Shown here: piece by piece, positions 204 through 16,011 of the stretch
Layout: the number at the start of each line of letters is the position of its first letter
Position numbering within the stretch: the stretch's first letter is position 1
Virus record (IMG/VR): IMGVR_UViG_3300046028_007469
Span: 1 to 20,218 of that record
Origin: a virus
DNA: 20,218 nucleotides
Reading direction: 5' to 3' (one strand)
Notes under the pieces: generated by a model
What the model was told of the DNA's origin: nothing
Seen by the model: the letters and a program-made list of their open reading frames with translations, nothing else
The model's database searches: none
Program-made: the position numbers and the translations under genes

Positions 204-614
204 ATGACTGCATTAACGAATTACACTGAAAACAATATCATTAACCATATCTTTCGTACCGGCAGTTTTACCAAGCCCTCTGCGTTGTATGTAGGCCTTA
301 TCACCTCATTGACTGATGGTGAAGGTGGTTCTTATGCAGAGCCAGCTGTCGGTGCTTATGCAAGGGTCGTTAGAAATCCTTTAGATGCTAACTGGAACGC
401 CTCAACAACTACCGGAACTACTGCCAATACGGCCAGTTTACAATTTCCTGCTGCGACAGCCGATTGGGGTACTTGTACACACTTTGGTATTTGGGATGCT
501 GCAACAGGTGGCAATCTACTGATCTATGCACCCTTAACCGCAGCCAGAACGATTACTAATGGCACAACTCCAAGCTTTGGCGCGGGCGCTTTAACTTTTC
601 AGGTAGATAACTAA
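204..614 (+). CDS. Small phage tail protein
   Basis: This 136-aa protein resembles the small tail proteins often coded just before a tail fibre. It has an N-terminal helix (TENNIINHIFR), then beta-rich sequence including ALYVGLIT and a C-terminal half rich in Thr, Ala and Gly (HFGIWDAATGGNLL). This pattern is known from phage tail proteins loosely described as Gp80-like; I judge similarity by eye only. The start ATG has a good ribosome site (GGGAG, spacing 8). Its TAA overlaps the next ATG by one base, so the two genes are translationally coupled. Most likely it is a structural tail-tip or fibre-attachment component. Confidence 0.65.
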   Translation: MTALTNYTENNIINHIFRTGSFTKPSALYVGLITSLTDGEGGSYAEPAVGAYARVVRNPLDANWNASTTTGTTANTASLQFPAATADWGTCTHFGIWDAATGGNLLIYAPLTAARTITNGTTPSFGAGALTFQVDN

Positions 615-1966
615 TGGCTACCTTAACACTGCGATCAGTTAAAGGATCGGAGCTTACCTCCGCTGAAATTGATGCCAACTTTACCAACTTGAATAATGAC
701 AAGCTGGATAAAACCGCAAGCACTAATATAGGCGTAGCAGGCGCCCAAGGTTTTGGCGTAGGACTTTGTAAAAATCTGCCCTCTGGTTTTGCAAAGATGA
801 CCGGCACAGATGATACCGCTTCTGCAAACTACGGAAATTATCAGTACACCGATGATTCGGTGATGTGTTGGATACCTGCCTTTTATTACAAGGTCGGCAC
901 AGGTAGCAATGGTTTGGCTTTAAACATCATTGATATTAAAGACTACAGCACTTACGCTGATGTTGCCACTGCTAACACGGCAGGTTATGCCCTACATCGT
1001 GCTTTTTATAATGCTGGTGTGGTACAAACAGGCGTGTTTGTTGATAAGTATCAATGCTCAAATAATGGGGGTATTGCTTCGAGTATTAAGCTGGGCAATC
1101 CTTTGTCCAGTGCTTTAGTGCATAACCCGTTTAGTGGCTTAACCGGCTTAACCACAGGCGATAATATCTATGCAGGTGCTTTTAAGGCAGCGAAAACGCG
1201 CGGCACCAAGTTCTTTTGTAACTCGCGGTTTATCTTTAGTGCGTTAGCGCTGTTATCGTTAGCGCATGGACAAGCGGCTACTTCTGCGACTGCGTGTGCC
1301 TGGTATGACGGAGCAGGCATTACTAATTTCCCTAAAGGCAATAATAATAACGCCTTGAAAGATACTAATGATGCCACCGTTACTTATATCACTGACGGTT
1401 ATCCCAATTGCGGACAAACCGGCTCAGCATCTAACCTAGCCAAGACAGCGCATAATGGTCAAAGCTGTGGTGTGGTTGATTTAAACGGCAATGTGTGGGA
1501 AATCAATACCGGCTTAATCAGCAACGGTAGTAATTATTATCTATTAAAAACCAATGCGGATATTAATGCGCTAACAGGTGGAAATACGTTAAGTACCGAT
1601 GCGTGGGGTGCTACCAGTATTGCCACCAATTATGATTTGTTGGGCGCAACGTATGGCAGCTTAACGGCTTCCAACACCGCAAAATATTTTAATTCGACGG
1701 GGCAAGTATTTAGCGAAGTGGTAGCTGGAGCAGGTGCGTGGGCAACCACTGGCGCAGGCCTACCTTTGGCAACCGGCGTGTCAACGGGTGGCACTAACGC
1801 AATGGGTAATGATGTGCTTTATGATTACCGGCCTAACGAGCTGTGCGCTCTTGCTGGTGGTGATTGGACCTATGGAGCGGCTGCGGGTGTTTGGACGCTC
1901 GCGTTGTTCCACGATCGGACGAATTCGAACTCCGTTATTGGCTTTCGCTCGGCCTTGTATCTTTGA
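614..1966 (+). CDS. DGR variable protein: tail fibre with C-type-lectin/FGE-like C-terminal domain
   Basis: This 450-aa protein starts like a phage tail fibre (LTSAEIDANFTNLNNDKLDK, residues about 15-34). It then carries a domain like formylglycine-generating-enzyme / C-type lectin folds: GVVDLNGNVWE in the middle and a terminal IGFR motif typical of these folds. The last 41 residues, from 410, are coded by the variable repeat of the adjacent retroelement. Against the template translation, 14 residues differ, including D417, T419, Y420, A423, A424, A430, F432, H433, D434, S440 and V441, while the W/G/GFR scaffold residues are kept. It is inferred to be the receptor-binding protein whose binding surface is diversified, as for Mtd of Bordetella phage BPP-1. 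Start ATG overlaps the upstream stop. Confidence 0.92.
   Translation: MATLTLRSVKGSELTSAEIDANFTNLNNDKLDKTASTNIGVAGAQGFGVGLCKNLPSGFAKMTGTDDTASANYGNYQYTDDSVMCWIPAFYYKVGTGSNGLALNIIDIKDYSTYADVATANTAGYALHRAFYNAGVVQTGVFVDKYQCSNNGGIASSIKLGNPLSSALVHNPFSGLTGLTTGDNIYAGAFKAAKTRGTKFFCNSRFIFSALALLSLAHGQAATSATACAWYDGAGITNFPKGNNNNALKDTNDATVTYITDGYPNCGQTGSASNLAKTAHNGQSCGVVDLNGNVWEINTGLISNGSNYYLLKTNADINALTGGNTLSTDAWGATSIATNYDLLGATYGSLTASNTAKYFNSTGQVFSEVVAGAGAWATTGAGLPLATGVSTGGTNAMGNDVLYDYRPNELCALAGGDWTYGAAAGVWTLALFHDRTNSNSVIGFRSALYL
1841..1955 (+). repeat. DGR variable repeat (VR)
   Basis: 115 bp at the 3' end of the tail-fibre gene align without gaps to the template repeat at 2387-2501 (offset 546). There are 20 mismatches; 19 are at adenines of the template and one is T to G at 1903. 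The last 16 bases before the end of conserved identity (1937-1952) match the template exactly and would act as the initiation-of-mutagenic-homing segment. Homology fades two codons or so before the stop codon at 1964-1966. Confidence 0.97.
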
Positions 1967-1983
1967 GGTCCTGAGCGATAGCG

Positions 1984-2385
1984 ATGGGGCTGCACTCTGA
2001 AGCAGGATTAGATAGAAAATTTATTGAATTTGCAAAACTGATGACAATTTATTTAAATCACTTTCCTACGCATGAAAAATACGGGCTTGCTTTAGAAATA
2101 AGGCGAGCTGCGTATGACGCGTATGCGCTGATTGTCGAGTGCCAAAAGCGCTATCATAAGAAAACCACACTCACGAGTCTGGATATTCGCCATGAGCAAT
2201 TGCGTATGCTGATTCGCTTGGCTAATGAACTGGGCTATTTTGGTTTTAAAGACGGTAAAAAGGATAAAAAACTGGCAGAGCATCGATATTTAAACCTGTC
2301 TTTGCTGGTTGATGAACTTGGACGCATGATTGGCGGCTGGATTGTCGCTGATCGTGATAAGAGTGTAGTACGGGAAGTATCTTAA
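1984..2385 (+). CDS. avd: DGR accessory variability determinant (Avd), four-helix bundle
   Basis: This 133-aa, wholly helical and basic protein lies exactly where avd lies in the BPP-1 type cassette, between variable gene and template repeat. The stretch FPTHEKYGLALEIRRAAYDA matches the helix pattern of the Avd / four-helix-bundle family, followed by helices around 60-80 (RHEQLRMLIRLANELGYF) and 100-125. Known Avd proteins form a barrel-like pentamer that binds the RT and the template RNA and is needed for mutagenic homing. The stop TAA (2383-2385) is separated from the template repeat by a single base. The start ATG 1984 has only a weak ribosome site; a later Met is possible. Confidence 0.88.
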   Translation: MGLHSEAGLDRKFIEFAKLMTIYLNHFPTHEKYGLALEIRRAAYDAYALIVECQKRYHKKTTLTSLDIRHEQLRMLIRLANELGYFGFKDGKKDKKLAEHRYLNLSLLVDELGRMIGGWIVADRDKSVVREVS

Positions 2386-2386
2386 T

Positions 2387-2501
2387 ATGTGCGCTATTGC
2401 TGGTGGTAATTGGAACAATGGAGCGAATACGGGTGTTTGGACGCTCAATTTGAACAACAATCGGACGAATTCGAACAACAATATTGGCTTTCGCTCGGAC
2501 T
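2387..2501 (+). repeat. DGR template repeat (TR)
   Basis: This is the invariant donor copy. It contains 32 adenines, 19 of which differ in the VR. The mutable positions are concentrated in AAC/AAT codons, which cannot become stop codons when only A is changed at positions 1 and 2. It begins one base after the avd stop and ends 163 nt before the RT start. A long open frame runs through it by virtue of its homology to coding sequence but need not be translated. Confidence 0.97.
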
Positions 2502-2664
2502 CGGTAAAGCCTCGAAATCTGATGTATGGATATGGTGGAGCCAAGGGAGATACTTTCCGGTGCGTAGCAAATGCTATGGCGAAATCGGTCTGCCCTCATT
2601 TTTCTGGTAGCAATAATCCGGTCAATTTTGTACTTGGGTGCGAACGTCAGATGAGGGTTTTATT
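2387..2664 (+). ncRNA. DGR template RNA: TR plus downstream spacer
   Basis: In the BPP-1 system the RNA substrate for the RT-Avd complex is the TR plus roughly 140 nt of downstream spacer, which primes cDNA synthesis. Here the spacer between TR end (2501) and RT start (2665) is 163 nt with no convincing gene, so a comparable RNA is expected. The boundaries are inferred from that analogy, and I did not derive a folded structure. Confidence 0.6.
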
Positions 2665-3681
2665 TTGAAACGGCAAGGACAGTTATTTGAGCAGGCTTTT
2701 ACTCACGATAATTTAGTGCAAGCATTTCATGATGCAGCAAAAAGCAAGCGAGGTCGTCGTGGCTGCTTTGATTTTGAAAAGCACTTGGCGATCAATATTA
2801 AAGAACTGCATAACGAACTGCATAGCGGCAACTATTGCCCAAAGCCTTATTTTACTTTTACTATTCATGAGCCTAAAGAGCGGGTTATCTTTGCGCCTGC
2901 ATTTCGTGATTGTGTTGTACAGCATGCCATTTACCGCATTATATCGCCCATTTTTGAAGCCACTTTTATAGATCAGTCATTTGCTTGTCGGGTTGGTTTC
3001 GGTACGCATAAAGCCGCTGATTATGCACAACACGCGCTGCAGCAAGTGCTTCACGATAGCTATACACTTAAACTTGATATTAGAAAATTCTTTTATCGCA
3101 TTGACCGGATTGTCTTGAAAACGCTTATTGAGAAAAAGATAAAAGACCAGCGTATGGTTAGGGTGATGATGCTATTTACAGAGCATGGTGAGGTGTTAGG
3201 TATTCCGATTGGCAATCTGTTGTCACAACTTTATGCGTTAATTTATTTGAATCCACTGGATCATTATATAAAGCGAGCGTTACAGATTAAATATTACTGT
3301 CGCTACGTTGATGATTTTATCTTGTTTGGGATTACGCATAAGCAAGCTGTAGCGTATCAACAACTCATTATTGATTACATTGATAGTAATTTAAATCTTG
3401 AGCTATCAAAGTCAACGATTGCCAAAGTCAATAAGGGTATTAATTTTGTGGGCTATCGCACCTGGTCAAGCAAGCGCTTTATTCGTAGACGCAGCTTATA
3501 TAATTTTAAACAAGCTGTAAAAGCATTAAAACTCGATTCAATTATCGCTATATTGGGGCATGCACGTAAAACCCATACCCTGAACTTCCTTTTAACCAAA
3601 CTAAGAGAAACTTATGCCGACTATTTACAGTTACCAAAAATATATAGATCCGCTAATCAGTCGTACCTTACGCTTACCTGA
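2665..3681 (+). CDS. DGR reverse transcriptase
   Basis: RT of the retron/group-II-like family found in DGRs. With TTG 2665 as start it is 338 aa and opens (M)KRQGQLFEQAFTHDNLVQA, the usual opening of DGR RTs. GAGGG at 2653-2657 gives an 8-nt spacing, so I prefer it to the in-frame GTG at 2638. Motifs by residue: DIRKFF (motif A, D138), IGNLLSQ (182-188, the DGR-type form of motif 4 ending in Gln) and YVDD (214-217, catalytic aspartates), then a GYRTW block and a C-terminal thumb. It would copy template RNA with adenine-directed errors and work with Avd. Its last 68 bases overlap the next gene in another frame. Confidence 0.95.
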   Translation: MKRQGQLFEQAFTHDNLVQAFHDAAKSKRGRRGCFDFEKHLAINIKELHNELHSGNYCPKPYFTFTIHEPKERVIFAPAFRDCVVQHAIYRIISPIFEATFIDQSFACRVGFGTHKAADYAQHALQQVLHDSYTLKLDIRKFFYRIDRIVLKTLIEKKIKDQRMVRVMMLFTEHGEVLGIPIGNLLSQLYALIYLNPLDHYIKRALQIKYYCRYVDDFILFGITHKQAVAYQQLIIDYIDSNLNLELSKSTIAKVNKGINFVGYRTWSSKRFIRRRSLYNFKQAVKALKLDSIIAILGHARKTHTLNFLLTKLRETYADYLQLPKIYRSANQSYLTLT

Positions 3682-4069
3682 AAGCAACGCAAATAGCCCT
3701 TTAGGTACAGAGTTGGCAACGATTGACGGGTTGACTTATGTCAGCATTCCTGATGATCAAGTCTTACCGACTAATCAATATGATGAGATAAGCGAAAGTA
3801 TTACAGAAGTCACAATGACTGACACATTGAAAGAAGCAATCAGACTGGTTAGCCCACATACCCAGTTAATCGCACAACGTATTATTGAAACAATACGCTC
3901 TAATTACACGATTGATGACGAAATGTATTTTGCCCGCATTGGTGTAGGTGCTTCAATGGGGCTTTACGTACCATCGACTCAAGAATTACAAGAAATGACA
4001 GTATTTGGTGAGTTTGTTGAAGCCACGCGTCAATGGGGCAGAGATCAACGGGCATTGTTAGGCTTATAA
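3614..4069 (+). CDS. Phage protein of unknown function, probably tail-associated
   Basis: This 151-aa acidic protein has no motif I recognise. It starts inside the RT gene (68-nt overlap) with a plausible ribosome site (AAGAGA, about 7 nt before ATG 3614). It runs to a TAA one base before the next ATG, suggesting coupled translation. Sequence such as YVPSTQELQEMTVFGEFVEATRQWGRDQRALLGL is globular and helical at the C-terminus. Its position between fibre/DGR genes and further tail-side genes suggests a virion or assembly role; this is inference from context only. Confidence 0.7.
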   Translation: MPTIYSYQKYIDPLISRTLRLPESNANSPLGTELATIDGLTYVSIPDDQVLPTNQYDEISESITEVTMTDTLKEAIRLVSPHTQLIAQRIIETIRSNYTIDDEMYFARIGVGASMGLYVPSTQELQEMTVFGEFVEATRQWGRDQRALLGL

Positions 4070-4070: not shown

Positions 4071-4880
4071 ATGCGCTACGCAGCCAATGGTTATGCACTA
4101 ACAGGGTACTTTCTGCAAGTAGAGGAGCAATTGGCTGCGACTGCGGTTTCTATATCTTCTGGTAGTGGTCAAGTTTACTCTATATTGGATGATCTACAGA
4201 GTAATTCATTTTCAGTTAGTACAAGTGCGGGTAATGTTTACTCAACACTGGATGATCTTCAAAGCAATTCATTCGCTACCAGTATAGGATCAGGTAATGT
4301 TTATTCAACATTAGCCTTATCTGGGAGTAGTGTTGGCATAAGCACTTTAGTTGCTGGCATTAGCCTAGATGCTTATTTAGTTAGTGATGCTACTGCAACC
4401 TGTATTAGTACAGGTAATGTTTATTCAGTATTGAATATAGCCTCTATAGCAACAGCCACCAGCACGTTAATAGGCGACGTTAATCCATCCTACCACTATT
4501 CCCAAGCAGGGTATGCAGAAGTAGGTTATTTCTTAGCAGATGAAGCGCCTGTTATAGCGACATCTGTTGCTGTATCTACTAGCACTGGTGAAGTTTACTC
4601 TATATTGGATGATCTACAGAGTAATTCATTTTCAGTTAGTACAAGTGCGGGTAATGTTTACTCAACGATAGATTTAGGCGGACAAGCGCAGAACATATCT
4701 TTAAGTGCAGGTACTATTTATTCAACTCAAACTTTATTTAGCAATGCTTATAGTGTTGTCACTACAGTTGGAAGAATAACCTTTCCTTCACTATATATAG
4801 GTGACTTAGGTATTGAATCACTCACACCTATCAATGCTATTGAATCGCTCACACCTGTACATCAAATAGGTATTTATTAA
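4071..4880 (+). CDS. Ser/Thr-rich internally repetitive protein
   Basis: This 269-aa protein is built from repeats of the form SxSxGxVYSxLD, seen at least seven times (GQVYSILDDL, GNVYSTLDDL, GNVYSTLALS, GNVYSVLNIA, GEVYSILDDL, GNVYSTIDLG, GTIYSTQTLF). Two larger modules each open with a Tyr/Gly motif (YAANGYALTGYF at 3 and YSQAGYAEVGYF near 142), so the gene looks like a partial duplication; a 76-bp DNA segment is exactly repeated 420 bp apart. The low-charge beta-repeat composition suits an extended fibre or surface-binding protein, but I do not recognise the family. It begins one base after the previous stop and abuts the next gene. Confidence 0.72.
   Translation: MRYAANGYALTGYFLQVEEQLAATAVSISSGSGQVYSILDDLQSNSFSVSTSAGNVYSTLDDLQSNSFATSIGSGNVYSTLALSGSSVGISTLVAGISLDAYLVSDATATCISTGNVYSVLNIASIATATSTLIGDVNPSYHYSQAGYAEVGYFLADEAPVIATSVAVSTSTGEVYSILDDLQSNSFSVSTSAGNVYSTIDLGGQAQNISLSAGTIYSTQTLFSNAYSVVTTVGRITFPSLYIGDLGIESLTPINAIESLTPVHQIGIY
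4171..4246 (+). repeat. 76-bp exact direct repeat, copy 1
   Basis: Identical to 4591-4666, offset 420 bp (140 codons), and in the same reading frame of the repetitive protein. A third, diverged copy of part of it follows at about 4232-4280. Identity at every base, including synonymous positions, implies recent duplication or gene conversion. Confidence 0.95.
4591..4666 (+). repeat. 76-bp exact direct repeat, copy 2
   Basis: Second identical copy of 4171-4246. Recombination between the copies would delete or add exactly 140 codons in frame. Confidence 0.95.
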
Positions 4881-5216: not shown

Positions 5217-5708
5217 ATGTTTTATATTCAAATCGCAATCGCTATTGCCATCTATGCTGCCGGCTATGCAACAGCATGGAAAGTAGAAGTCAGAGAAGTA
5301 GCCAGGCTGGAGGCATCCATTGACTCAGCTAATCAACAATCACAAGCTACACTTAGTGCCATTCAAGAGCGTGTCAAATCTGCCCAAGACAAGGCAGAGG
5401 TCGTCGCTGTACAACTTGAGAGTGAGCATACTCAAAGCACTCAATCTATTGCTAATCTGTCTACTCGTCTGGCAGCTGCTCGGTTGCAGTACGCCAAGCA
5501 TTCAGCCGGTCGTGGTTGCCCCTTGCCCAAAATTAGTGATACCCCCTACGATCAAATCCATGATGAAGCAGGATCTTACTTATCAGCCACTGAACTTTCA
5601 GCAGGGTTTGATCAACTTGTACTCACCAAAAACCCCGACCAACTAGCAGAAGATAAACATTTCATTCTAGCCTGGCTGAACACCATCCCACCGGAGCAAG
5701 TCCAATGA
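5217..5708 (+). CDS. Rz: Rz-like inner-membrane spanin subunit
   Basis: This 163-aa protein has an N-terminal membrane anchor (residues about 3-20, IQIAIAIAIYAAGYATAW) followed by a long charged helix with coiled-coil character (about 25-95), the plan of lambda i-spanins. A second reading frame inside it codes a lipoprotein of the Rz1 type, which makes the assignment firm. Spanin pairs bridge the inner and outer membranes in the last step of lysis of Gram-negative hosts. The C-terminal part ends with EDKHFILAWLNTIPPEQV. The stop overlaps the next start (ATGA). Confidence 0.85.
   Translation: MFYIQIAIAIAIYAAGYATAWKVEVREVARLEASIDSANQQSQATLSAIQERVKSAQDKAEVVAVQLESEHTQSTQSIANLSTRLAAARLQYAKHSAGRGCPLPKISDTPYDQIHDEAGSYLSATELSAGFDQLVLTKNPDQLAEDKHFILAWLNTIPPEQVQ
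5422..5646 (+). CDS. Rz1: Rz1-like outer-membrane spanin lipoprotein, embedded in Rz
   Basis: In the +1 frame relative to Rz there is a short frame with a signal sequence and lipobox: ALNLLLICLLVWQLLGC, then a Pro-rich mature part (STPSIQPVVVAPCPKLVIPP). Processing at the Cys would give a lipoprotein of about 53 residues. The open frame extends back to ATG 5320, but that gives an overlong N-terminus, so I place the start at GTG 5422 (74 aa), which puts the hydrophobic segment at the N-terminus. The ribosome site for this start is poor, as is common for embedded Rz1 genes. Confidence 0.8.
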   Translation: MSILKALNLLLICLLVWQLLGCSTPSIQPVVVAPCPKLVIPPTIKSMMKQDLTYQPLNFQQGLINLYSPKTPTN

Positions 5709-7012: not shown

Positions 7013-8023
7013 CTAAATATCAACGTCACCGGGATTAATATTGCAGTATCTCTGCAAAGTTTTCCAGCTCGAATGTAAAGTTATCTGCTGTACATCAACT
7101 ATTGATAGTCCTCTTTCAAATAGTCGGCTGGTTGCTTCATGGCGCATATCATGAAAATGTAAATCTTTAATATCCAGTAAGTGACAGGCATTAGTAAAGT
7201 ATTGCCCTACTGTTTTCGAGTTGTATGGAAAAACCCTATCATCAACTTTAGGTTGACGCATGACAATCTTATAAGCACTTAGTGGCATTTTAGCACGTTT
7301 ACTAATGACTCGCTTAAAGGGGTCTTTTAAGCCGTACACCATATACGTCCTATCTTCATGGCGAATATCATCCCACCGAATACGCATGATTTCAGACTGT
7401 CTACGAGCCGAATAGATTGCAAACCACATCAAGTCAAGCATCGGTACATTCATTCCTTGAAGCCGTCTTGATAGCGCCCAGATTTCCTCCTTTGTTGGCC
7501 TTCTAGTTCTAGTCTCAGACGATTTAATCAAGCCATTGTCTTTGAGTATCTTTCTGGCCTCGTCAAATATGCCCATATTAAAATCTAGCTTGTGCATACC
7601 TGACATGGTTTGAATAACACCACTAAGCCAAATCAAATCATTTCCAGCGGTTTGCGGCTGGCACTCCTCATTCCTGAGCTTAATATGTTTCACCAAATCT
7701 CTTACTGTTAATTTATGGATATCGATCTTACAAATATCCCTCCTTCTTAATCCCTTTATGTCAGCCTTTTTGGTTCGCCCTTCTGGACTAAACGATTCGA
7801 TATATTCATCAATTAAAGTACCAATAGGCAGATAGGCTTTCTTGGCATAGACGGACGTTTCTTGTAATTCAACCTCGCGTCTCATGCCCCAGTCTTTAGC
7901 CAATTTAGATTTTAAAAAGGTTTTAGACTCTCGATGAATTACAATGCCATCTTTTCTGATGACCACCTCACATTTAAATTTAATAGTGCCATCTGTGAGG
8001 ATATATTTTCTTATTGAAGCCAT
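7013..8023 (-). CDS. int: Tyrosine site-specific recombinase (phage integrase)
   Basis: From ATG 8023 this is 336 aa, starting MASIRKYILTDGTIKFKCEV, the usual beta-sheet arm-binding N-terminus. The in-frame ATG at 8056 would add 11 residues through an inverted repeat and has no ribosome site. The catalytic set is visible: Arg208 (ARRQSEI), a beta-hairpin Lys in GLKDPFKR, H291-x-x-R294 (HDMRHEA), the LHSSW box replacing the second His region, and Tyr326 (LQRYCNI). It would integrate and excise the phage at att. It is the last gene of the leftward operon, next to a PrtN-like protein that may be the directionality factor. Confidence 0.93.
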   Translation of the reverse strand: MASIRKYILTDGTIKFKCEVVIRKDGIVIHRESKTFLKSKLAKDWGMRREVELQETSVYAKKAYLPIGTLIDEYIESFSPEGRTKKADIKGLRRRDICKIDIHKLTVRDLVKHIKLRNEECQPQTAGNDLIWLSGVIQTMSGMHKLDFNMGIFDEARKILKDNGLIKSSETRTRRPTKEEIWALSRRLQGMNVPMLDLMWFAIYSARRQSEIMRIRWDDIRHEDRTYMVYGLKDPFKRVISKRAKMPLSAYKIVMRQPKVDDRVFPYNSKTVGQYFTNACHLLDIKDLHFHDMRHEATSRLFERGLSIVDVQQITLHSSWKTLQRYCNINPGDVDI

Positions 8024-8025
8024 AA

Positions 8026-8068
8026 TCAGTCCGCATGAAAGTTTCACTGTCAACATTATGCGGACTGA
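8026..8068. repeat. 11-bp inverted repeat at the integrase start
   Basis: TCAGTCCGCAT (8026-8036) and ATGCGGACTGA (8058-8068) form a perfect inverted repeat with a 21-nt loop just upstream of the preferred integrase start codon at 8023. In mRNA it would form a stable stem that could hide the start region. The same GCGGACTG core recurs at 8200-8220. Confidence 0.75.
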
Positions 8069-8099
8069 TATACCTAAAATGCAAGATTTTAATCTATTT

Positions 8100-8129
8100 T
8101 AAACCATGATAAACCGAGATAAACTGGAT
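8100..8129 (+). repeat. Three tandem 10-bp TAAACC-type repeats upstream of int
   Basis: TAAACCATGA, TAAACCGAGA and TAAACTGGAT follow each other at a 10-bp period. They are phased like protein-binding sites and share AACCAT with the repeats beyond the other end of int. Confidence 0.55.
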
Positions 8130-8199
8130 CATAGCTTCTGTGTTGCGCCCATGCTGGATTGGACGAATATGCCATATAAAATGCGGTATGTAGCGCTTC

Positions 8200-8220
8200 A
8201 TGCGGACTGGACGCGGACTG
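8200..8220 (+). repeat. Tandem GCGGACTG repeats
   Basis: ATGCGGACTG (8200-8209) and ACGCGGACTG (8211-8220) are direct repeats 11 bp apart. Together with the two arms at 8026-8068 they make four copies of an eight-base core within 200 bp, between the integrase and the PrtN-like gene. Confidence 0.6.
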
Positions 8221-8227
8221 CTTAAAC

Positions 8228-8236
8228 TTATCCACA
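8228..8236 (+). promoter_or_regulatory. Consensus DnaA box
   Basis: TTATCCACA is a perfect match to the DnaA-box consensus, beside the repeat cluster upstream of int. It stands alone, so replication-origin function is not established. Confidence 0.35.
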
Positions 8237-8240
8237 GATT

Positions 8241-8468
8241 TTATGATCTGGAACGGCTGTCTAAAACGTCTGCTAATTGCTCAATATCGACAAGCCAAGG
8301 TGATTTTGCAGATCCAAGTCTAAATGCTTTTATACCACCCAACTCATTTTTTAACGCCATTTTAGAGATTACACTCGCATCGCTAATGCCCAAATACTCA
8401 GTCGATATTTGAAGCAGGGGTACAAACTTTTTATTATACTGCTTAAATAATGCTTCAGATGTTTTCAT
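8241..8468 (-). CDS. PrtN-like DNA-binding regulator, candidate excisionase
   Basis: This 75-aa protein fits the pyocin-activator PrtN pattern: N-terminal FKQYNKKFVPLLQISTEYLG, a central helix-turn-helix-like part (ISDASVISKMALKNEL), then KAFRLGSAKSPWLVDIEQLADVLDSR, matching the family's FRLG...VHIxDLAxYID ending. PrtN proteins bind DNA and activate transcription, and small relatives act as phage excisionases. Lying directly upstream of int and the repeat cluster, a recombination-directionality role is plausible. Its start overlaps the preceding stop by four bases. Confidence 0.75.
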   Translation of the reverse strand: MKTSEALFKQYNKKFVPLLQISTEYLGISDASVISKMALKNELGGIKAFRLGSAKSPWLVDIEQLADVLDSRSRS

Positions 8469-8740
8469 TCCAAACCTACCTCATTCCTAATCACCGGTGG
8501 TGTAAGCGTATAAGGATTATTAGGTGACTGAGTGGACCATTCAGCACCGTAACGACCATTCGGATTATTGATAGAATTAACTCCCCAGGTACTGCCATAC
8601 GGTCCACTTGGATTAGCGGTTGAATCATACTGATAGGGAGATCCACCTAATTTACCGAGATAGGTACCATCTTGAGCATAGATCTCAGCACCTGTTGCTG
8701 ATGTACTTAGTAACAGCAACACAATTAATTTAATTTTCAT
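8465..8740 (-). CDS. Small secreted protein with Asn/Pro/Gly/Tyr repeats
   Basis: This 91-aa protein has a clear signal peptide (MKIKLIVLLLLSTSATGA, cleavage near residue 18). Its mature part has repeats of the type NPxGxYGxxW and SxNNPY: YLGKLGG, NPSGPYGSTWG, NPNGRYGAEWS and SPNNPYT. Similar secreted proteins of unknown function occur in many bacteria and temperate phages. The ribosome site AGAGGA is 8 nt from ATG 8740. A secreted product within an early operon is unusual and suggests a lysogenic accessory role, which is inference. Confidence 0.78.
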   Translation of the reverse strand: MKIKLIVLLLLSTSATGAEIYAQDGTYLGKLGGSPYQYDSTANPSGPYGSTWGVNSINNPNGRYGAEWSTQSPNNPYTLTPPVIRNEVGLE

Positions 8741-8900
8741 GTGAAATTTCCTCTAGTGATTTAATATTCTGTTGCAATGCGTAATAACCCATTGCATGTA
8801 GACAGGCTTCGTAGGAACCGTCTGTTGATGATTCACAGCCACTCGCTTGTAGTTTTATTTCTGATAGGCGTTGTTTCATTTCTTCAAGATTAGAGATCAT
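8730..8900 (-). CDS. 56-aa helical small protein
   Basis: ATG 8900 to TAA 8730-8732 codes 56 residues, starting MISNLEEMKQRLSEIKLQ and containing GCESSTDGSYEACLHAMGYY. GAGGGAG about 7 nt upstream is a strong ribosome site. It overlaps both neighbours by about 11 bases, as expected in a compact phage operon. It has two cysteines and is otherwise an amphipathic helix; the family is unknown. Confidence 0.6.
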   Translation of the reverse strand: MISNLEEMKQRLSEIKLQASGCESSTDGSYEACLHAMGYYALQQNIKSLEEISHEN

Positions 8901-9078
8901 TTCTTTTCTCCCTCTCTGCCAGCATCGCCATCATCGCATTTGCGAACCATCCCAACATAACCTCATCATTTAAATTACATTCTGGATTACACTCTCTAAA
9001 AAACTTTGTCCAAGCCAATGCACTTGAGTTGCTGTGTATGCTCATATCATAAGGAGCGGGTTTGTCTTTACTCATCAT
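8890..9078 (-). CDS. Small phage protein of unknown function
   Basis: This 62-aa protein starts MMSKDKPAPYDMSIHSNSSA, continues with two Cys close together (RECNPECN) and ends with helix EVMLGWFANAMMAMLAEREK. It immediately follows the upstream stop codon and overlaps the downstream gene. Two tandem ATGs (9078 and 9075) are possible starts. No family recognised. Confidence 0.6.
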   Translation of the reverse strand: MMSKDKPAPYDMSIHSNSSALAWTKFFRECNPECNLNDEVMLGWFANAMMAMLAEREKRNDL

Positions 9079-9258
9079 CTACTCTTTATCTTTAATTGCT
9101 TTATCGACATTAAAGCTCTCTGCAAAATGAACCATCGAGCCATTGCCGGTCATGCAATACCTAAAATTTCCATCGTCTCTAAATACTATGTATTTAGTTT
9201 TTGATTCATCACCGGTAATGGTGAATACAGCGTTAAGCGGTAAATCTTTCAGTTTCAT
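9079..9258 (-). CDS. Small phage protein of unknown function
   Basis: This 59-aa protein starts at ATG 9258, preceded by AGAAGG at 8-nt spacing; a TTG at 9276 would add six residues but lacks a ribosome site. It is a compact alpha/beta domain: LPLNAVFTITGDESKTKYIVFRD then YCMTGNGSMVHF. It resembles small single-domain phage proteins with beta-barrel character; no function assigned. It overlaps the DUF1289-like frame by 26 bases. Confidence 0.65.
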   Translation of the reverse strand: MKLKDLPLNAVFTITGDESKTKYIVFRDDGNFRYCMTGNGSMVHFAESFNVDKAIKDKE

Positions 9259-9352
9259 TTCTTTTACCTTCTTCAATTATTTCTTCAATCGTTCTTTTGC
9301 AACCTAAGCAAACACCATTCTCTAACCAGCATTTGTTAATACACTTACTCAT
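9233..9352 (-). CDS. 39-aa DUF1289-like Cys peptide
   Basis: ATG 9352 to TAA 9233-9235 codes 39 residues. MSKCINKCWLENGVCLGCKR followed by TIEEI matches the DUF1289 pattern (C-x3-C-x6-C-x2-C-x-RT-x2-EI), a short four-cysteine domain of unknown function probably binding a metal. It overlaps the genes on both sides. The conserved Cys spacing and the RT/EI ending are the evidence that this tiny frame is real. Confidence 0.7.
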   Translation of the reverse strand: MSKCINKCWLENGVCLGCKRTIEEIIEEGKRNETERFTA

Positions 9353-9647
9353 AACATAGAGCTTCAAAATTAACCTCCACGTTCAAAAACATCTGGCCAT
9401 TAAAATAAGAGTCGATCCGCTTAATTCCACCAAACTGCATTAACGTATCTTTTCGGGTACGAGTTAGCTTTTTAGGTTTGATGTTATTTAAAATAAAATC
9501 ATCAACAACCTGTTCGTCATACATCAAATGCCTACCATGCTTGCAAACATGATCTGGAAAATGTTTCCATAGCTTTTGCATCCTTGCTCTAAGTTGTTTT
9601 CTTGTGATTCCCAACTTTGCTGCAATATGATCTCTATTCACTAGCAT
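9345..9647 (-). CDS. Putative small DNA-binding protein
   Basis: This 100-aa basic protein has an N-terminal helix-turn-helix-like segment, HIAAKLGITRKQLRARMQKLW (about residues 7-27). A second helix pair follows with VVDDFILNNIKPKKLTRTRK, and the C-terminus is YFNGQMFLNVEVNF. It overlaps the end of the preceding HTH gene by 14 bases. It is likely a phage regulator or replication accessory; the family is not identified. Confidence 0.62.
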   Translation of the reverse strand: MLVNRDHIAAKLGITRKQLRARMQKLWKHFPDHVCKHGRHLMYDEQVVDDFILNNIKPKKLTRTRKDTLMQFGGIKRIDSYFNGQMFLNVEVNFEALCYE

Positions 9648-9987
9648 TTGTAAGCCTATCTATTGTGTGTAGCCTATTTAGCCTGGCGGGTTGATAGAAA
9701 TTAATCAGCATCTCTGGATACTCAAACGGCTGTCCAGGTTGCTGTGTAAAATAAACATCCGACTCGTTATTAAAATCGTAGGCTTTCTTTATGCCAGTTT
9801 TGGGACCGTTACGAACCTCAGAAAGAATCGTATCTTTTAAAGCATCAATATCTTCCTTCAAGTAATACTTCTTACCTTTGATCGTGACAGGTTTAGGTAT
9901 CTTTCCAATATTCCCCCAACGATAAACCGTCAAGGGGCTTGTTTTCAGAATGACGCAGACTTCACATCGGTTGTAGTAGCGATTCAT
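9634..9987 (-). CDS. AlpA/MerR-like helix-turn-helix protein
   Basis: This 117-aa protein begins with a winged-helix DNA-binding domain: CEVCVILKTSPLTVYRWGNI (recognition helix about 15-25), GKIPKPVTIKGKKYYLKEDIDAL (wing and helix). That is the layout of excisionase/AlpA-type domains. The C-terminal half (about 60-117) is of unknown fold. GAGG at 7-nt spacing supports ATG 9987. It may be a transcription factor or a replication-initiation helper, as it lies beside the helicase. Confidence 0.72.
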   Translation of the reverse strand: MNRYYNRCEVCVILKTSPLTVYRWGNIGKIPKPVTIKGKKYYLKEDIDALKDTILSEVRNGPKTGIKKAYDFNNESDVYFTQQPGQPFEYPEMLINFYQPARLNRLHTIDRLTNASE

Positions 9988-9989
9988 AG

Positions 9990-11603
9990 TTAAGCCTCTA
10001 ATTTAACGATTTTGGGATAGGTGCCTGACTCATCAACTACCGCTGCTGTTGGTTTGGTTGCGTGTTCTCTTGCCAGCTGTACACAATCGCCCAGATCATT
10101 AGGAGGCGGTGCAGACCGATAGGCTATCCACCTTGCCCACCATTGCAGAGCCTTTTCTTTAGCAAAGCCTTGATGGTTAAAACAGATCCACTCAGTACCT
10201 ATAATTTTCAATCCAGCCCAATAATCAACTCTCATACAGGGATTGCCGCTTTGTTTTCCAATATGCTCTCTGTAAGTGACGTTAGTGACATCATAAGTAA
10301 CAATCTTGGCCTCTAACTGGCTCCTCATGATTGCCGCGTTACTGGCTTCTCTTGCGGCTTTCTCTTCAGCTTCTCGCATCAGTGAGCCACACTCAGGACA
10401 CTCCAGTAAACTAGCCGGCCTAACTTGCGCCCCGCAGTCATCGCAAATAGCATAAGGCGCAGCACCAGAATTAGATGATTTACTTTTCTTCCTACCTTTT
10501 ATTGCATCTACTGGGCCGAGACGAGCAGTTGTATCGGTGAAGTCAAGCCACAAGCAATCCGTCTTACCATTCGATATGCGCATACCACGACCAGAGCCTT
10601 GCACATAAAGAACAGGGCTTTTAGTCGGGCGTAACCACAATATGCAGTCAATATCTTCAACATCAAATCCGGTAGCCAATGCTAAAACAGTAACCAGGCA
10701 ACGCAATTCACCCCGTTTAAAGCTGTCGATCAGCTCTTCACGTTCTTTCTTAGGTGTTGAGCCACAGACCAGAGCAACCGCTATGCCTAGCTCAGTAAGA
10801 CAGCTTACTAAGTGTTCAGCATTGGCAACAGTTGGAGTAAAGGCTATCCACTTCCTTCTATCTACAGCTAAGTTACAAGCCTCAACCGCTGCTGACTCTA
10901 TATAAGTGTCAACACGCTCAGATAGATCCGAAATAGCGAAGTCGCCATTAACGATTTTCAAGTCGTCAGTTTCAATATGCGTACTGACGTTATCAATAGG
11001 CCGTATCAGTGGCGATAGAAAACCAAGATCCAGTAATTGCTGTATCTTTACTTCGTGAGCTATGGAGCAAAACAGCGGGTCCTTACCGTCGGTTAGCCAC
11101 GTACCGTTACCTCTAAAGGGAGTCGCTGTTAAGCCGACTACTCTAAACTCACAATACTTGGCCAGATCATTTAGAAATTGGCGGTATTGACCTGAGCCAT
11201 CAGGGTTGACCAAATGGCACTCATCGATAATTACACAATGGATATTGCCTAAGACATGTGCATTTTTAGCGATAGAGCCAATGGTCGCGACTATCACATC
11301 CGCTGTTGGTACTTTCTGCCCTAAGCTGGCAGAGTAATAACCGATACTGAGATGACGAGGCAATATGCGCCTTAACTTGTCGGCATTTTGTTCAGCTAGT
11401 TCTTTGGATGGTACTAAAATGATTGTTCTTGGATGAGCTTCAGGCCAGGTATCAAATAACAATCTGACTAACTCAGCAATGATAATTGACTTACCGGCAC
11501 CGGTAGGTAGAGCCAGTATGGGACAGCGATCAATAGACGGATTACCAACCCACCAGTGATATAGTGCGTCTATGCTCTCCTGTTGATATTCACGGGGTTT
11601 CAT
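9990..11603 (-). CDS. SF2 DEAD/DEAH-box helicase with zinc ribbon
   Basis: This 537-aa protein starts at ATG 11603, supported by GAGGA about 8-9 nt upstream. Superfamily 2 motifs are present in order: Q-tip REYQQES, Walker A PTGAGKS (33-39), Ia VPSKELAEQN, DECH (127-130), GLTATPFRG (motif III), the ATGFDVEDID region and QGSGRGMR (motif VI, GRGxR). A C-terminal zinc ribbon CDDC...CPEC follows, then about 140 residues of unknown fold. Such phage helicases unwind DNA during replication or recombination. It overlaps the 3' end of the repeat-protein gene by 14 bases. Confidence 0.92.
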   Translation of the reverse strand: MKPREYQQESIDALYHWWVGNPSIDRCPILALPTGAGKSIIIAELVRLLFDTWPEAHPRTIILVPSKELAEQNADKLRRILPRHLSIGYYSASLGQKVPTADVIVATIGSIAKNAHVLGNIHCVIIDECHLVNPDGSGQYRQFLNDLAKYCEFRVVGLTATPFRGNGTWLTDGKDPLFCSIAHEVKIQQLLDLGFLSPLIRPIDNVSTHIETDDLKIVNGDFAISDLSERVDTYIESAAVEACNLAVDRRKWIAFTPTVANAEHLVSCLTELGIAVALVCGSTPKKEREELIDSFKRGELRCLVTVLALATGFDVEDIDCILWLRPTKSPVLYVQGSGRGMRISNGKTDCLWLDFTDTTARLGPVDAIKGRKKSKSSNSGAAPYAICDDCGAQVRPASLLECPECGSLMREAEEKAAREASNAAIMRSQLEAKIVTYDVTNVTYREHIGKQSGNPCMRVDYWAGLKIIGTEWICFNHQGFAKEKALQWWARWIAYRSAPPPNDLGDCVQLAREHATKPTAAVVDESGTYPKIVKLEA

Positions 11604-12066
11604 TATTGTATTCCTCACATTCTTTATAAAAACTTATCTGTAAATCTTCGTAATCTTGTTTTCTGGCTTGGTAATTAGCCTTACGTCTAGCACTAACGGA
11701 TTCTTTATTAGCTTGGTAATAATCCTTATTTTTAGCCGACTCAGCTTCTTTATTAGCTTCGTAACTAGCCTTTCTTGTAGCCGCAACTAATTCTTTATTA
11801 GCGTGTTTATAAACCTTACTGTAAGCCGCAATAGCTTCTTTATTGGTTTCTCTATAAACCTTAGTTCTAGCTAAAATAGCTTCTTTATTAGCTTGTTGAT
11901 AAGCCTTTTGTCTAGCTAAAATAGCTTCTTTATTAGCTTGGTAATAATCCTTATTTTTAGCCGACTCAGCTTCTTTATTAGCTTGGTAATAATCCTTATT
12001 TTTAGCCGACTCAGCTTCTTTGTTAGCTTCGTAATAAACCTTAGCTTGTTCTTTAGTGTGAGCCAC
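11590..12066 (-). CDS. 15-residue-repeat protein A
   Basis: This 158-aa protein is made of about eight tandem 15-residue units of the form YYxANKEAxxAxxKx, ending with a distinct tail ARKQDYEDLQISFYKECEEY. It is wholly helical, Lys/Ala/Glu-rich, and repeats at the DNA level every 45 bp. It starts with GTG 12066 (AHTKEQAKVY), whose ribosome site GGAG lies within the end of the preceding gene. Similar repeats occur next to HNH or DNA-binding domains in phage proteins, but no such domain is present here. Fifteen-residue periodicity can form a right-handed coiled coil or a charged helical rod. Function unknown. Confidence 0.72.
   Translation of the reverse strand: MAHTKEQAKVYYEANKEAESAKNKDYYQANKEAESAKNKDYYQANKEAILARQKAYQQANKEAILARTKVYRETNKEAIAAYSKVYKHANKELVAATRKASYEANKEAESAKNKDYYQANKESVSARRKANYQARKQDYEDLQISFYKECEEYNNETP
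11612..11669 (+). repeat. 58-bp exact repeat at the 3' end of repeat gene A
   Basis: Identical to 12076-12133 (offset 464 bp). It codes the shared C-terminal tail of the two repeat proteins and shows that one gene arose by tandem duplication of the other. Confidence 0.95.
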
Positions 12067-12470
12067 TAGAAATACTCCTCACATTCTTTATAAAAACTTA
12101 TCTGTAAATCTTCGTAATCTTGTTTTCTGGCTTCTTTATAAGCCTTTTGTCTAGCTGCAATAGATTCTTTATTAGCTTGGTAACTAGCCTTATTTTTAGC
12201 TAAAACAGATTCTTTATTAGCTTTGTAATAATCTTTTCTATAAGCCGCAACTAATTCTTTATTAGCGTGTTTATAAACCTTAGCTTTAGTCGCAATAGCT
12301 TCTTTATTGGCTTCTCTATAAGCCTTATTCCTAGCTAAAACAGCTTCTTTGTTAGCTTCTCTATAAGCCTTTTGTCTAGCTAAAATAGCTTCTTTATTGG
12401 CTTCGTACTCAGCCTTTTTTCTAACCGCAATAGCGTCTTTATTGACTGCTACCCAAGCCTTAGTAGCCAT
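12066..12470 (-). CDS. 15-residue-repeat protein B, paralogue of A
   Basis: This 134-aa paralogue of the downstream gene has about seven 15-residue units (YREANKEAxxAxxKx) and the same C-terminal tail. The N-terminus, MATKAWVAVNKDAIAV, is its own. ATG 12470 has a good ribosome site (CGGAG at 8 nt) that lies inside the 30-bp repeat 12468-12497. It overlaps the next gene by one base. Unit number and order differ from protein A, so repeats have been gained or lost since duplication. Function unknown. Confidence 0.72.
   Translation of the reverse strand: MATKAWVAVNKDAIAVRKKAEYEANKEAILARQKAYREANKEAVLARNKAYREANKEAIATKAKVYKHANKELVAAYRKDYYKANKESVLAKNKASYQANKESIAARQKAYKEARKQDYEDLQISFYKECEEYF
12076..12133 (+). 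repeat. 58-bp exact repeat at the 3' end of repeat gene B
   Basis: Second copy of 11612-11669, coding the ARKQDYEDLQ...KECEEY tail of protein B. Confidence 0.95.
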
Positions 12471-12497
12471 TAAAAATACTCCGGTGTCTCAACTATC
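12468..12497 (+). repeat. 30-bp direct repeat, distal copy
   Basis: Identical to 12898-12927 (offset 430 bp). On the minus strand it reads as the end of the nuclease gene (IVETPEYF, stop), a CGGAG ribosome site and the TAATG stop-start junction. Here it precedes repeat protein B although the nuclease gene ends elsewhere, so it is a duplicated remnant. Confidence 0.93.
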
Positions 12498-12501
12498 ATG
12501 A

Positions 12502-12900
12502 CTAAAGTTTCCCACCCCAAACTTTACTTGTTTCAGATTTTTTAATAGGGATGTATTCAAACATATCAGATGGGAGACGATACCTATACTCATGCAATGA
12601 ATTAAGGGCATTATTGACAGATAGCGGACAACATTTATCCCTGATAATAATGCCTAATGCAGTTGCATATACCAATGATACTAATTTTTCTGGATAATCT
12701 TCGTTTTCTCGTACCTCTACGTTACAAGCTCCCCAAGAGCATTCATACATTCTTTTGCGGTCATAATAAAAATCCGCATCAGTTACAACTATGTCTATAG
12801 AATTACGGTTCCACTCTATTACATTATGTATAATTCTTCCTTTATCCCAGATACGGACAAGATCGTTTTTATAGTTTTCTGGATCAAATTTGTTTGGCAT
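12502..12900 (-). CDS. Inserted ORF of unknown function
   Basis: This 132-aa protein is acidic/aromatic and its family is not recognised: IWDKGRIIHNVIEWNRNSID, then YYDRKRMYECSWGACNVEV, CCPLSVNNALNSLHEYRYRL. Its start ATG 12900 uses the ribosome site within the 30-bp repeat, and a second copy of that repeat lies directly beyond its stop. The layout is that of a gene cassette inserted at a gene junction with duplication of the junction, or brought in by homologous recombination across it. Confidence 0.68.
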   Translation of the reverse strand: MPNKFDPENYKNDLVRIWDKGRIIHNVIEWNRNSIDIVVTDADFYYDRKRMYECSWGACNVEVRENEDYPEKLVSLVYATALGIIIRDKCCPLSVNNALNSLHEYRYRLPSDMFEYIPIKKSETSKVWGGKL

Positions 12901-12927
12901 TAAAAATACTCCGGTGTCTCAACTATC
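12898..12927 (+). repeat. 30-bp direct repeat, proximal copy
   Basis: The original copy: on the minus strand it is the last codons of the nuclease, the ribosome site and the start codon of the next gene. See 12468-12497. Confidence 0.93.
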
Positions 12928-13946
12928 TTGGCATTAAACTCTTTTCGCATTTCTTCATTAACGGGATCACCTAAGACAGACTTAGAGCCAGCAAAATGAA
13001 TTTCATCTGAGCGATAACCATCGGCAGAGTTACTGAATAACTCGCCATTCAGCTTGTTTCTGTACGTCACGATATTAAGCTCTTGTGAGCCGTCTACCAC
13101 TTCAGCAAAATTAGCTAAATGTGTTGGTGCAAAACGATGATGAATACAGCCAGCCTTTTGTTCAGCAACACTTAAATTGTCATTCTTAAAGTAGCCGCAG
13201 GACCATTTACCATTGCGTTCCGGTGTTACATGAGCGCAGCTACGACAAGTTGGAAGGGGGGCCTCAGTACCATGACAAATATTACTAAAGTCACACCACT
13301 TACATAAGTAATACGATGGATCACTAGAGATGCCCATTGGGGCTTCTTCACTAAAGATTACCTTTTCCGCTGTCTTGAGTAGCGCTTGGGCTAATTCAGG
13401 GTCAGCATCAATAATTTCTGTGTGTAAATCATCGGTATTTTTATTGGCAGCCATATATAAGGCTTTTGTCATGCCGGTGAGTGACATGTAAATTTGCATT
13501 TGCGCATAGTGCTGGGGCTTTGATGTTTTAACGCCTTTACTGATTAAATCTTTAAAACTCTTTTCGCCATGCGTTTTAAATTCAACACAGTGCCAAGTCT
13601 TAGGGTCAGAGGGTAGGCCAACAACAGCGCCATCCATACTGCCTCCAAAGTGACCACCGAGTTCAGATACACGCCATTGCTTACCTTCTTCAGGACCTTC
13701 TGTTACTTCACAGCCAATCCAGCGCAGTTCTTCAACAAAACGAGCTTCAGCGAGTTGCCCAGTTTCAAACAGCCTAAGCATACGACCATCGAAACTAGAC
13801 TTCTTTACCCAACGAAAGCCGAACCACAATGCCTTTGAACAAGGCGCACCGATCTGACTTGCACCTAAATGAGGGCGCAGGCCATCGTCATTGCGTTCAA
13901 CGCGGGCTTTATATATCAAATCGGTTAATGTGCTACGGCCTTCCAT
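12900..13946 (-). CDS. Cas4/RecB-like PD-(D/E)XK nuclease with probable Fe-S cluster
   Basis: 348 aa. Nuclease motifs: GGSMDGAV with D105, VEFKT with E122 and K124, and QHYAQMQIYM (Q145-Q151), the RecB-family motif. Cys36 (APCSKAL) together with C215-x2-C218-x5-C224 (LCKWCDFSNIC) matches the split four-cysteine set that binds a 4Fe-4S cluster in Cas4/AddB nucleases. A second Cys/His group follows (CRSC at 234-237, SCGYF, GCIHHR). It would resect DNA ends for the adjoining Sak4-like annealase and DUF669 protein. ATG 13946 has AGGG about 8 nt upstream. No CRISPR array or other cas gene is present, so it is a phage recombination exonuclease. Confidence 0.9.
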   Translation of the reverse strand: MEGRSTLTDLIYKARVERNDDGLRPHLGASQIGAPCSKALWFGFRWVKKSSFDGRMLRLFETGQLAEARFVEELRWIGCEVTEGPEEGKQWRVSELGGHFGGSMDGAVVGLPSDPKTWHCVEFKTHGEKSFKDLISKGVKTSKPQHYAQMQIYMSLTGMTKALYMAANKNTDDLHTEIIDADPELAQALLKTAEKVIFSEEAPMGISSDPSYYLCKWCDFSNICHGTEAPLPTCRSCAHVTPERNGKWSCGYFKNDNLSVAEQKAGCIHHRFAPTHLANFAEVVDGSQELNIVTYRNKLNGELFSNSADGYRSDEIHFAGSKSVLGDPVNEEMRKEFNAKIVETPEYF

Positions 13947-13948
13947 GA

Positions 13949-14458
13949 TTAAACCCTAACTGCCCAAGGAGCCGCACCATTAGCAGCGACAGGAGCGGGT
14001 GTTGGTTGAGCGTAAGCTGGTGGAGTGAAACTTGGCGCAGCATGACTAGCAGAGCCATTGGCGGCCTCATACCCCACTATCTCATTGCTGTCATCATAGT
14101 TAGAGCCTGGAGCAGCAATACGGATCTTAACTTTGATAGTGACAGGAAGGTTATGCAGCTCGCTAGTATCTTTAAGCTGTAAGATACCAACCGCGTGACA
14201 CAGCTGTGAGAGTTGACCTTGACCAATACTTTCAGCTTTAGGGTTATTATGCTGAACATTGATGTTAGAGAAGATACGACGATTCGCGTACTGCCCATCA
14301 ACAATTTGCAGTTGCAGACTTAAGCCAGTGCCATTACCCGATTTAAGCAGCTTCATTTCAGATGAAGTGACCAAAGCCAGATAGTTACCGGCTGGAATGG
14401 GTGCAAAGCTAGTTTCTTGTGGTTTAACAGCGGTTGCGTCAAAATTAAATAATGCCAT
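13949..14458 (-). CDS. DUF669-like single-strand-binding/recombination protein
   Basis: 169 aa from ATG 14458, supported by AGAAGG at 8-nt spacing; an upstream Met in the same frame lacks such a site and overlaps the next gene. MALFNFDATAVKPQ, then FAPIPAGNYLALVTSSEMK, SGNGTGLSLQLQIVDGQYANRRIF and GQLSQLCHAVGI are the conserved blocks of DUF669, phage proteins grouped with recombination and replication genes. An Ala/Pro-rich linker leads to a short C-terminal tail (PWAVRV). It is inferred to bind single-stranded DNA alongside the Sak4-like ATPase just upstream. Confidence 0.85.
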   Translation of the reverse strand: MALFNFDATAVKPQETSFAPIPAGNYLALVTSSEMKLLKSGNGTGLSLQLQIVDGQYANRRIFSNINVQHNNPKAESIGQGQLSQLCHAVGILQLKDTSELHNLPVTIKVKIRIAAPGSNYDDSNEIVGYEAANGSASHAAPSFTPPAYAQPTPAPVAANGAAPWAVRV

Positions 14459-14471
14459 GATGGTTACCTTC

Positions 14472-15215
14472 TTATAGTGTGGTTTTGATGTTGTCGGAAA
14501 ATTCCGAATAGTTAAGCGCTTGATTTTTGAGTCCAAAACGATTGCCGCCACAGTGGGCAGGGTGCGGTTCGAGATGCAAAATTCTTGCGCCAGTGGTTGT
14601 AGCCTTTGTTTCAGTTTTATTGAAGCCTGATTCGTTTTGGCGCGTGACAATCTTATAGCCGGCATAACCAATCACGTCTGCCCATTCCATGATCAAAGCT
14701 GATGCTCTGTCATGCAGTTTCAATACATGCGAGTCATAACCGTCAGTCATTGGATCGTCGATGCGTTTGATCTTGTCGTGAGCGATTAGAAACACACCCA
14801 TGTTCTTAGCGTTGCGTAGGGCTTCAAAGCCTGACAGCAGGGTACGCCACTCTTCAGCAGCGGCTATATAGCCTTTGCCATAGCCTGCTTGCTCGATGTC
14901 TTTCCAGCCATTAGCATTGCAGACATGCTTATGAATAAGCGGTTCGCACCAGTCGAGTGAGTCTAAAAAGACATTCTCAAAGCCATGATCTTCAGTAATA
15001 AGAACTCCAAGAGCCTGATAGACATCATCAAGCGTTGTTGCTAACGGGAAAGCTACGGTGTCTATGTTAGTGGAACCATCTTCAGTTAAGATCCCTACGC
15101 AGTTTGGTGCGGAAGCTGCAAAAGTTGTTTTACCGATCTTTCCAGGTCCTACGATAACGACCTTCTTAGCGGCCAGTCGCTTTGTCTTACTAATTGATTG
15201 TAAATTTAAGGCCAT
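14472..15215 (-). CDS. Sak4-like RecA-fold ATPase / recombinase
   Basis: 247 aa. Walker A GPGKIGKTT (23-31) and Walker B VFLDSLD (82-88) mark a P-loop ATPase. The short length, the GILTEDG segment after Walker A and the LIAHDKIKRIDDP block match the AAA_24/Sak4 group of phage RecA-like annealases. These promote strand annealing or exchange during phage replication, usually with an SSB and an exonuclease, both of which are the next two genes. ATG 15215 has AGGACA about 8 nt upstream. Confidence 0.88.
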   Translation of the reverse strand: MALNLQSISKTKRLAAKKVVIVGPGKIGKTTFAASAPNCVGILTEDGSTNIDTVAFPLATTLDDVYQALGVLITEDHGFENVFLDSLDWCEPLIHKHVCNANGWKDIEQAGYGKGYIAAAEEWRTLLSGFEALRNAKNMGVFLIAHDKIKRIDDPMTDGYDSHVLKLHDRASALIMEWADVIGYAGYKIVTRQNESGFNKTETKATTTGARILHLEPHPAHCGGNRFGLKNQALNYSEFSDNIKTTL

Positions 15216-15226
15216 AATGGCGTGTC

Positions 15227-15598
15227 CTATCTGATTGTTAATGCCGGTTTTGCCGGAGTTGAGGTTATAAATTTGGCGGCTTGTAAATAAGCCACGTCAT
15301 CTAATTCTTGTACGGCTCTCATCGCTGTTGTAGAGATGTCAGCTGCCCACTTAAAACAGTTCTGCGTGTTTCTACCCAATCCTGCCCAGCTTGCTTGCAG
15401 ACTGGCTGTATCAACTTTGCGGGATACTTTATATGTAACTGTTACTTTGCCTTCTTCGGTTGACTCAGATACCGAGCCTTCCTCTTTGTGAGGCATCAAG
15501 TTAATAATTAATGCTTCTAGTTCACGACGTGCAAATGTAGCGTCGTTTTCAGCTTCTTTGGCAATCTTCCACTCAGCGACTAAATCGTTTAACGCCAT
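15227..15598 (-). CDS. Small phage protein of unknown function
   Basis: 123 aa from ATG 15598, with GGAGAA about 7 nt upstream; a longer frame extends into the hairpin region and is unlikely. The N-terminal half is a helical pair (LVAEWKIAKEAENDATFARRELEALI). A beta hairpin (GKVTVTYKVSRKVDT) and a C-terminal helix follow. Proteins of this shape often precede Sak4-like genes in phages; no function can be named. Confidence 0.72.
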   Translation of the reverse strand: MALNDLVAEWKIAKEAENDATFARRELEALIINLMPHKEEGSVSESTEEGKVTVTYKVSRKVDTASLQASWAGLGRNTQNCFKWAADISTTAMRAVQELDDVAYLQAAKFITSTPAKPALTIR

Positions 15599-15674
15599 GA
15601 TGGTTCTCCTATATAATAAAGATGCTCCGCTCGTGTGTAGCACTTGCTGAAGCGGTTAAGATAAAATCTGTTAT

Positions 15675-16010: not shown

Positions 16011-16011
16011 C

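Follow-up and report, generated by a model that had tools for sequence, protein, structure and literature searches.

The DGR (diversity-generating retroelement) of Bordetella phage BPP-1 is arranged in the order mtd-avd-TR-brt, with the TR directly after the avd stop codon, a lectin-fold host-binding gene that ends in the VR, a GRNA hairpin behind the VR and a spacer before the reverse transcriptase (RT) gene. For the hairpins of phage DGRs, Guo et al. (PMC3240598) established the GRNA loop rule, in which a 4-nt GRNA loop is carried on an uninterrupted stem of 7–10 bp. In a survey of more than 30,000 DGRs, Roux et al. 2021 (PMC8144416) found broadly active phage clades in which tail proteins are diversified, and frequent transfer of DGRs between genomes was known from the same work.

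In the current study, we analysed a 20,218-base virus record from IMG/VR (here called the window), which is a fragment of an uncultured phage. It was confirmed to contain a complete DGR of the BPP-1 type, sharing with that system each of the features of order and placement listed above; DGRs are an already known kind of element and this is one more phage DGR. The first-pass annotation had claimed a complete DGR with the gene order of BPP-1, and every part that it named was present at about the place given, in the same order as in the annotated BPP-1 cassette. Its span of 1841–3681 held for the parts but not for the extent of the element, which is 614–3681 since the target gene begins at 614.

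Results

Organisation of the cassette

The order of the element is target gene, avd, TR, structured spacer RNA and RT, and a hairpin behind the VR is, like the spacer, also part of it (Table 1).

Table 1. Coordinates in the window of the DGR components and of the gene that follows them.
Feature	Start	End	Strand	Remarks
Target (variable) protein	614	1966	+	450 aa; VR at C-terminus
VR	1842	1955	+	3′ end of target gene; 83% identity to TR
IMH-like A-poor VR 3′ end	1938	1952	+	same sequence in TR (direct comparison)
VR-flanking hairpin	1967 (about)	1989 (about)	+	GRNA tetraloop GATA at 1977–1980; 3′ arm holds avd start codon
avd (accessory variability determinant)	1984	2385	+	133 aa; Pfam bAvd, E 1.2e-16, above cut-off
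TR	2388	2501	+	31 adenines; starts two bases past avd stop
Structured spacer RNA	2502	2664	+	between TR and RT; covariation
DGR reverse transcriptase	2665	3681	+	338 aa; IGNLLSQ and YVDD
dn1	3614	4069	+	151-aa protein; overlaps RT 3′ end; directly after cassette in most relatives

VR and TR form a single 114-nt direct repeat with the copies 546 nt apart, and of the 19 mismatches between them, 18 coincide with one of the 31 adenines of the TR (hypergeometric P 8.5e-12). Read from TR to VR, the changes comprise seven A to C, six A to G, five A to T and one T to G, the lone non-adenine mismatch being located at 1903 (T in TR, G in the window VR). At position 1953 the TR has A and all close relatives inspected have C in their VR; this is probably a fixed IMH/IMH* difference and not a mutagenic change, which would leave 17 of 18 mismatches at adenines for the mutable part of the VR. 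The same bias was observed across 28 non-redundant relatives, in which adenines account for 749 of 3,261 TR bases and for 423 of the 434 TR/VR mismatches.

The avd product, predicted at the outset to be an Avd-like protein, is supported in this assignment by its Pfam bAvd match and by PHROG 3206 (‘Avd protein of DGR’, E 4.7e-21), while its score of 69 bits against the NCBIfam model DivGenRetAVD lies below the model cut-off of 80.

The RT contains both motifs attributed to it beforehand, and these fit the DGR-clade patterns [IVL]GxxxSQ and YxDD. Its best match among solved structures is the BPP-1 bRT (8ub7, E 3.2e-53), and it matches PHROG 1423 with an E of 8.8e-99 when the longer reading of the gene is used. 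One rival reading is a group II intron RT, a retron RT or a DRT defence RT that by chance lies beside a repeat, and HMM libraries do give partial matches to models of all three classes. All matches with a stated cut-off fall far below it, however, and the motif that reads QGGxxSP in the sampled group II RTs is IGNLLSQ in this RT. Phylogenetic placement, which the first-pass annotation had proposed as a check, grouped the RT with the DGR RTs of BPP-1, VP58.5, ACA1, BalMu-1, Lagaffe and ANMV-1 and, with 100/100 support, placed it apart from five RTs of group II introns. Together with the adenine-biased TR/VR pair and the presence of avd, these results refute an RT of another class, to which we assign a negligible probability. 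The RT start is probably TTG 2665 and not GTG 2638, since the RTs of all relatives begin with MKRxG at the position aligned to TTG 2665 (MKRQG in the window) and a GAGGG ribosome-binding sequence (2653–2657) lies 8–12 bases upstream.

The target protein

The first 36 residues of the target protein form a tail-attachment-like N-terminal segment, which is followed by a lectin/FGE-like fold, and its PHROG matches are 20912/2889 (unknown function; tail family). The AF2 model has a mean pLDDT of 71 and a pTM of 0.80, with weak stretches at residues 1–36 and 226–285. Foldseek returned TaqVP (5vf4) as the best PDB match of this model (E 3.6e-13), whereas Mtd variants were matched weakly (E 0.0075–0.044) and TvpA (2y3c) had an E of 0.19; by sequence, TaqVP was the sole PDB match (E 0.00068). 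The claim that the VR-bearing gene has a lectin fold is thus supported by the best match of a model of moderate confidence. Most of the rewritten codons are AAY (Asn), and they lie at the C-terminal end of the protein which, by analogy with known systems, is most likely the receptor-binding protein of the phage.

Natural variation of the VR

Three contigs from three sister metagenomes (L002, L003 and L004) align without gaps to the window over 4.2–7.5 kb, and the comparisons below are between assembly consensus sequences. The TR is identical in the window and all three contigs, in which avd, RT and spacer are likewise intact and identical, while the VR differs from that of the window at 20 (L002), 22 (L003) and 21 (L004) positions, all but one at TR adenines. 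Diversity at adenine positions of the VR with an invariant TR, the other check proposed for this locus, can therefore be read directly from these contigs. Window and L002 differ at 24 of 5,636 bases, 20 of which are in the VR and four near the left end (8–65); this corresponds to 20/114 nt within the VR and 4/5,522 nt elsewhere (Fisher P 2e-31). Such numbers of VR differences on a nearly unchanged background point to a VR turnover that greatly outpaces change in the remainder of the genome.

A decayed or silent DGR, with a cassette intact in sequence, VR differences that are old and an element that no longer works, would find some precedent in the repeated loss of the cassette at related loci, as inactive states do exist in this family. 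With three contigs in which intact, identical parts accompany 20–22 VR differences and almost nothing else has changed, we consider it very improbable. Ordinary recombination with diverged phages, and not retrohoming, might also be invoked for the VR differences of L002–L004. Recombination appears common here, as a block spanning 725–4069 is found at 87–94% identity in phages whose available flanks have no nucleotide match, and the VR of L003 is a 5′/3′ mosaic relative to L002 and L004. Yet recombination would not confine changes to TR adenines, as observed for 19 of the 20 VR differences between window and L002 (hypergeometric P 1.2e-12), and would bring in flanking differences; it may shuffle VR alleles but cannot create them, and as the source of this variation it is most unlikely. 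Rewriting of the VR from the TR remains the preferred reading.

The 3′ half of the L003 VR (1895–1937) is common to L002 and L004 and its 5′ half differs. If retrohoming invariably began at the 3′ end, this mosaic would not be expected; it may reflect recombination between VR alleles or the assembly of mixed populations.

Outside the VR, 12 differences between L004 and the window are clustered at 5261–5454 in a spanin-like gene, where L002 is identical to the window; we note this as a patch of local divergence. In a further gene (4071–4880), 110-bp direct repeats are present at 4137–4673, and L003 is without the stretch between them (4247–4556), through either slippage or assembly collapse.

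The VR-flanking hairpin

The core of the hairpin, GAGC-GATA-GCGA (1973–1984) with a GA/GA internal loop, is conserved and its outer helix covaries. The core is common to 28 loci with 22 distinct arm pairs, and only 3 of 5000 shuffles of these arm pairs reached the observed pairing. In L034, L056 and L058 the avd start lies outside the hairpin and the core is nonetheless kept, so that avd coding alone is insufficient to explain it. The GA/GA internal loop is conserved in the clade of the window, while Pseudomonas phage Bise, L018, L043 and others have near-perfect stems.

The structured spacer RNA

The spacer had no family match in Rfam. Its covariation is strong: in a structure drawn up manually from single folds, and leaning on them, 135 cells show changes on both sides, compared with 47.7 in shuffles and 22–37 in slid controls, which fall short of the count; plain RNAalifold recovered two covarying helices only. 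One helix (2593–2601/2649–2657) has compensatory changes at six of six counted pairs and holds the ribosome-binding sequence of the RT in its 3′ strand. We infer that this helix may regulate RT translation.

Loss of the DGR and exchange of the locus in relatives

Protein searches with target and dn1 yielded about 35 contig lineages with both the target end and dn1, of which about 24 hold avd-TR-RT. In the other 11 (L010, L015, L021, L024, L026, L032, L035, L044, L046, L051 and L063), target and dn1 are kept and the DGR is lost or broken, leaving no whole avd-TR-RT; a search of these contigs turned up no other RT. Absence of the DGR is scattered on the target tree, with 11 changes on the best tree and at least six forced by well-supported branches.

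Remnants of the cassette persist at these loci. L010 retains 44 RT codons, whose protein is identical to that of the window, joined a few bases past the target stop, and RT tails are kept in L015, L026 (a weak match read by eye), L035 and L051. All five RT tails begin at about RT residue 290–299, immediately N-terminal to the LGHAR motif, and RT fragments of intermediate length were not seen at any locus. Pieces of avd are kept in L015, L021, L044 and L051, and the hairpin sequence in L016 and L063. Antisense HNH endonuclease genes (PHROG 374) replace TR and RT in L021 (8442–9128, minus strand) and L044 (4576–5265, minus strand), the position within avd at which the insertion occurs differing between the two. 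Because avd, RT and hairpin remnants persist, loss is favoured as the origin of the DGR-less loci. An ancestral DGR-less state was ruled out, several of these loci holding avd or RT fragments. No description of this pattern of loss was found in the part of the literature that was searched.

The block 725–4069 begins at about target residue 38 and ends with the stop codon of dn1. It matches L005 at 94% identity, the available L005 flanks giving no nucleotide match, and its identity to L006 and L007 is 88% (in L007 over the part covered by the contig). Its conservation in the absence of flank matches points to exchange of 725–4069 as a unit.

Genomic context and host

A gp80 fibre family is encoded 5′ of the target gene, and lysis genes and an integrase lie 3′ of it. 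The region 7013–19098 encodes integrase, helicase, a Cas4-like exonuclease, SSB, a Sak4-like annealing protein and a cI-like repressor; as predicted from its gene content, the source is a temperate tailed phage carrying its own recombination genes. Two adjacent genes on the minus strand (11590–12066 and 12066–12470) encode proteins built of NKEAxxARxKAYxxA-like repeats, with near-identical C-termini.

The whole window had no nucleotide-level match among reference phages, and dn1 had none in the reference phage collection. Rfam and tRNA scans of the window were also without a match and thus gave no attachment-site clue to the host. Scanning of genome contigs for relatives succeeded with an RT alignment as query, whereas the RT as a single sequence retrieved no relative. 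A DNA-based host search in three genomes carrying related cassettes gave matches confined to the cassette region. Among cellular genome assemblies, the closest cassette was found in a Methylococcales MAG (RT 69%), which offers a hint and no more that the host group may be the Gammaproteobacteria.

Discussion

Taken as a whole, the findings are best explained by a BPP-1-type DGR that rewrites the VR of the target gene from a constant TR, an explanation in which we place very high confidence. By analogy with work on BPP-1, an RT-Avd complex would bind an RNA that includes the 3′ end of avd together with the TR and the spacer, and the RT would copy the TR with errors opposite adenines; the cDNA would then replace the VR up to the IMH, aided by the hairpin, with the TR left unchanged. 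The predicted outcome is a phage swarm with differing host-binding surfaces. The use of a DGR in nature can thus be read from public contigs, with at least 20 changes per 114 bases at the tip and almost none elsewhere.

A broader proposal, which we put forward as a tentative and rather doubtful one, is that the DGR acts as a removable switch on a host-binding locus, with the spacer helix balancing RT translation against template use. Phages would alternate between hypervariable and frozen states through clean loss of avd-TR-RT or through an HNH endonuclease gene taking its place; target and dn1 would stay through the loss and move between phages as a block. In the active state, the helix covering the ribosome-binding sequence of the RT would trade RT translation off against the use of the same RNA as template. 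The pairs with and without a DGR (about 24 intact lineages and 11 without) bear on when the freezing of a receptor-binding protein benefits the phage, and the GA/GA hairpin and covarying spacer RNA provide comparative data on DGR parts known mainly from BPP-1.

Compared with BPP-1 itself, the window RT is only 35% identical, the fold of the target is closer to TaqVP than to Mtd, and the cassette is followed by dn1. The BPP-1 hairpin, GCGGGGCC-GAAA-GGCCCCGC, occupies the same place behind the VR on a perfect stem, whereas that of the window has the conserved GA/GA internal loop; with respect to the hairpins of PMC3240598, the GATA loop fits and the interrupted stem is a variant form. The nearest catalogued phage is Pseudomonas phage Bise (OR683401), whose cassette has the same order (RT 55.8%, Avd 61.8%) and in which nine of nine TR/VR mismatches are at adenines, the bias also seen in the window. 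Bise is nonetheless a different phage of 38 kb, with a perfect hairpin stem, a DNA methylase behind the RT and no dn1 found beside its DGR, and its target shares 28% identity with that of the window in the C-terminal half only. TaqVP, the variable protein of a Thermus aquaticus DGR, is the best structural match of the target at 15–16% identity, the window protein having additional N-terminal attachment-like residues. Among the metagenomic phage DGRs of PMC8144416, the element fits those which diversify tail proteins.
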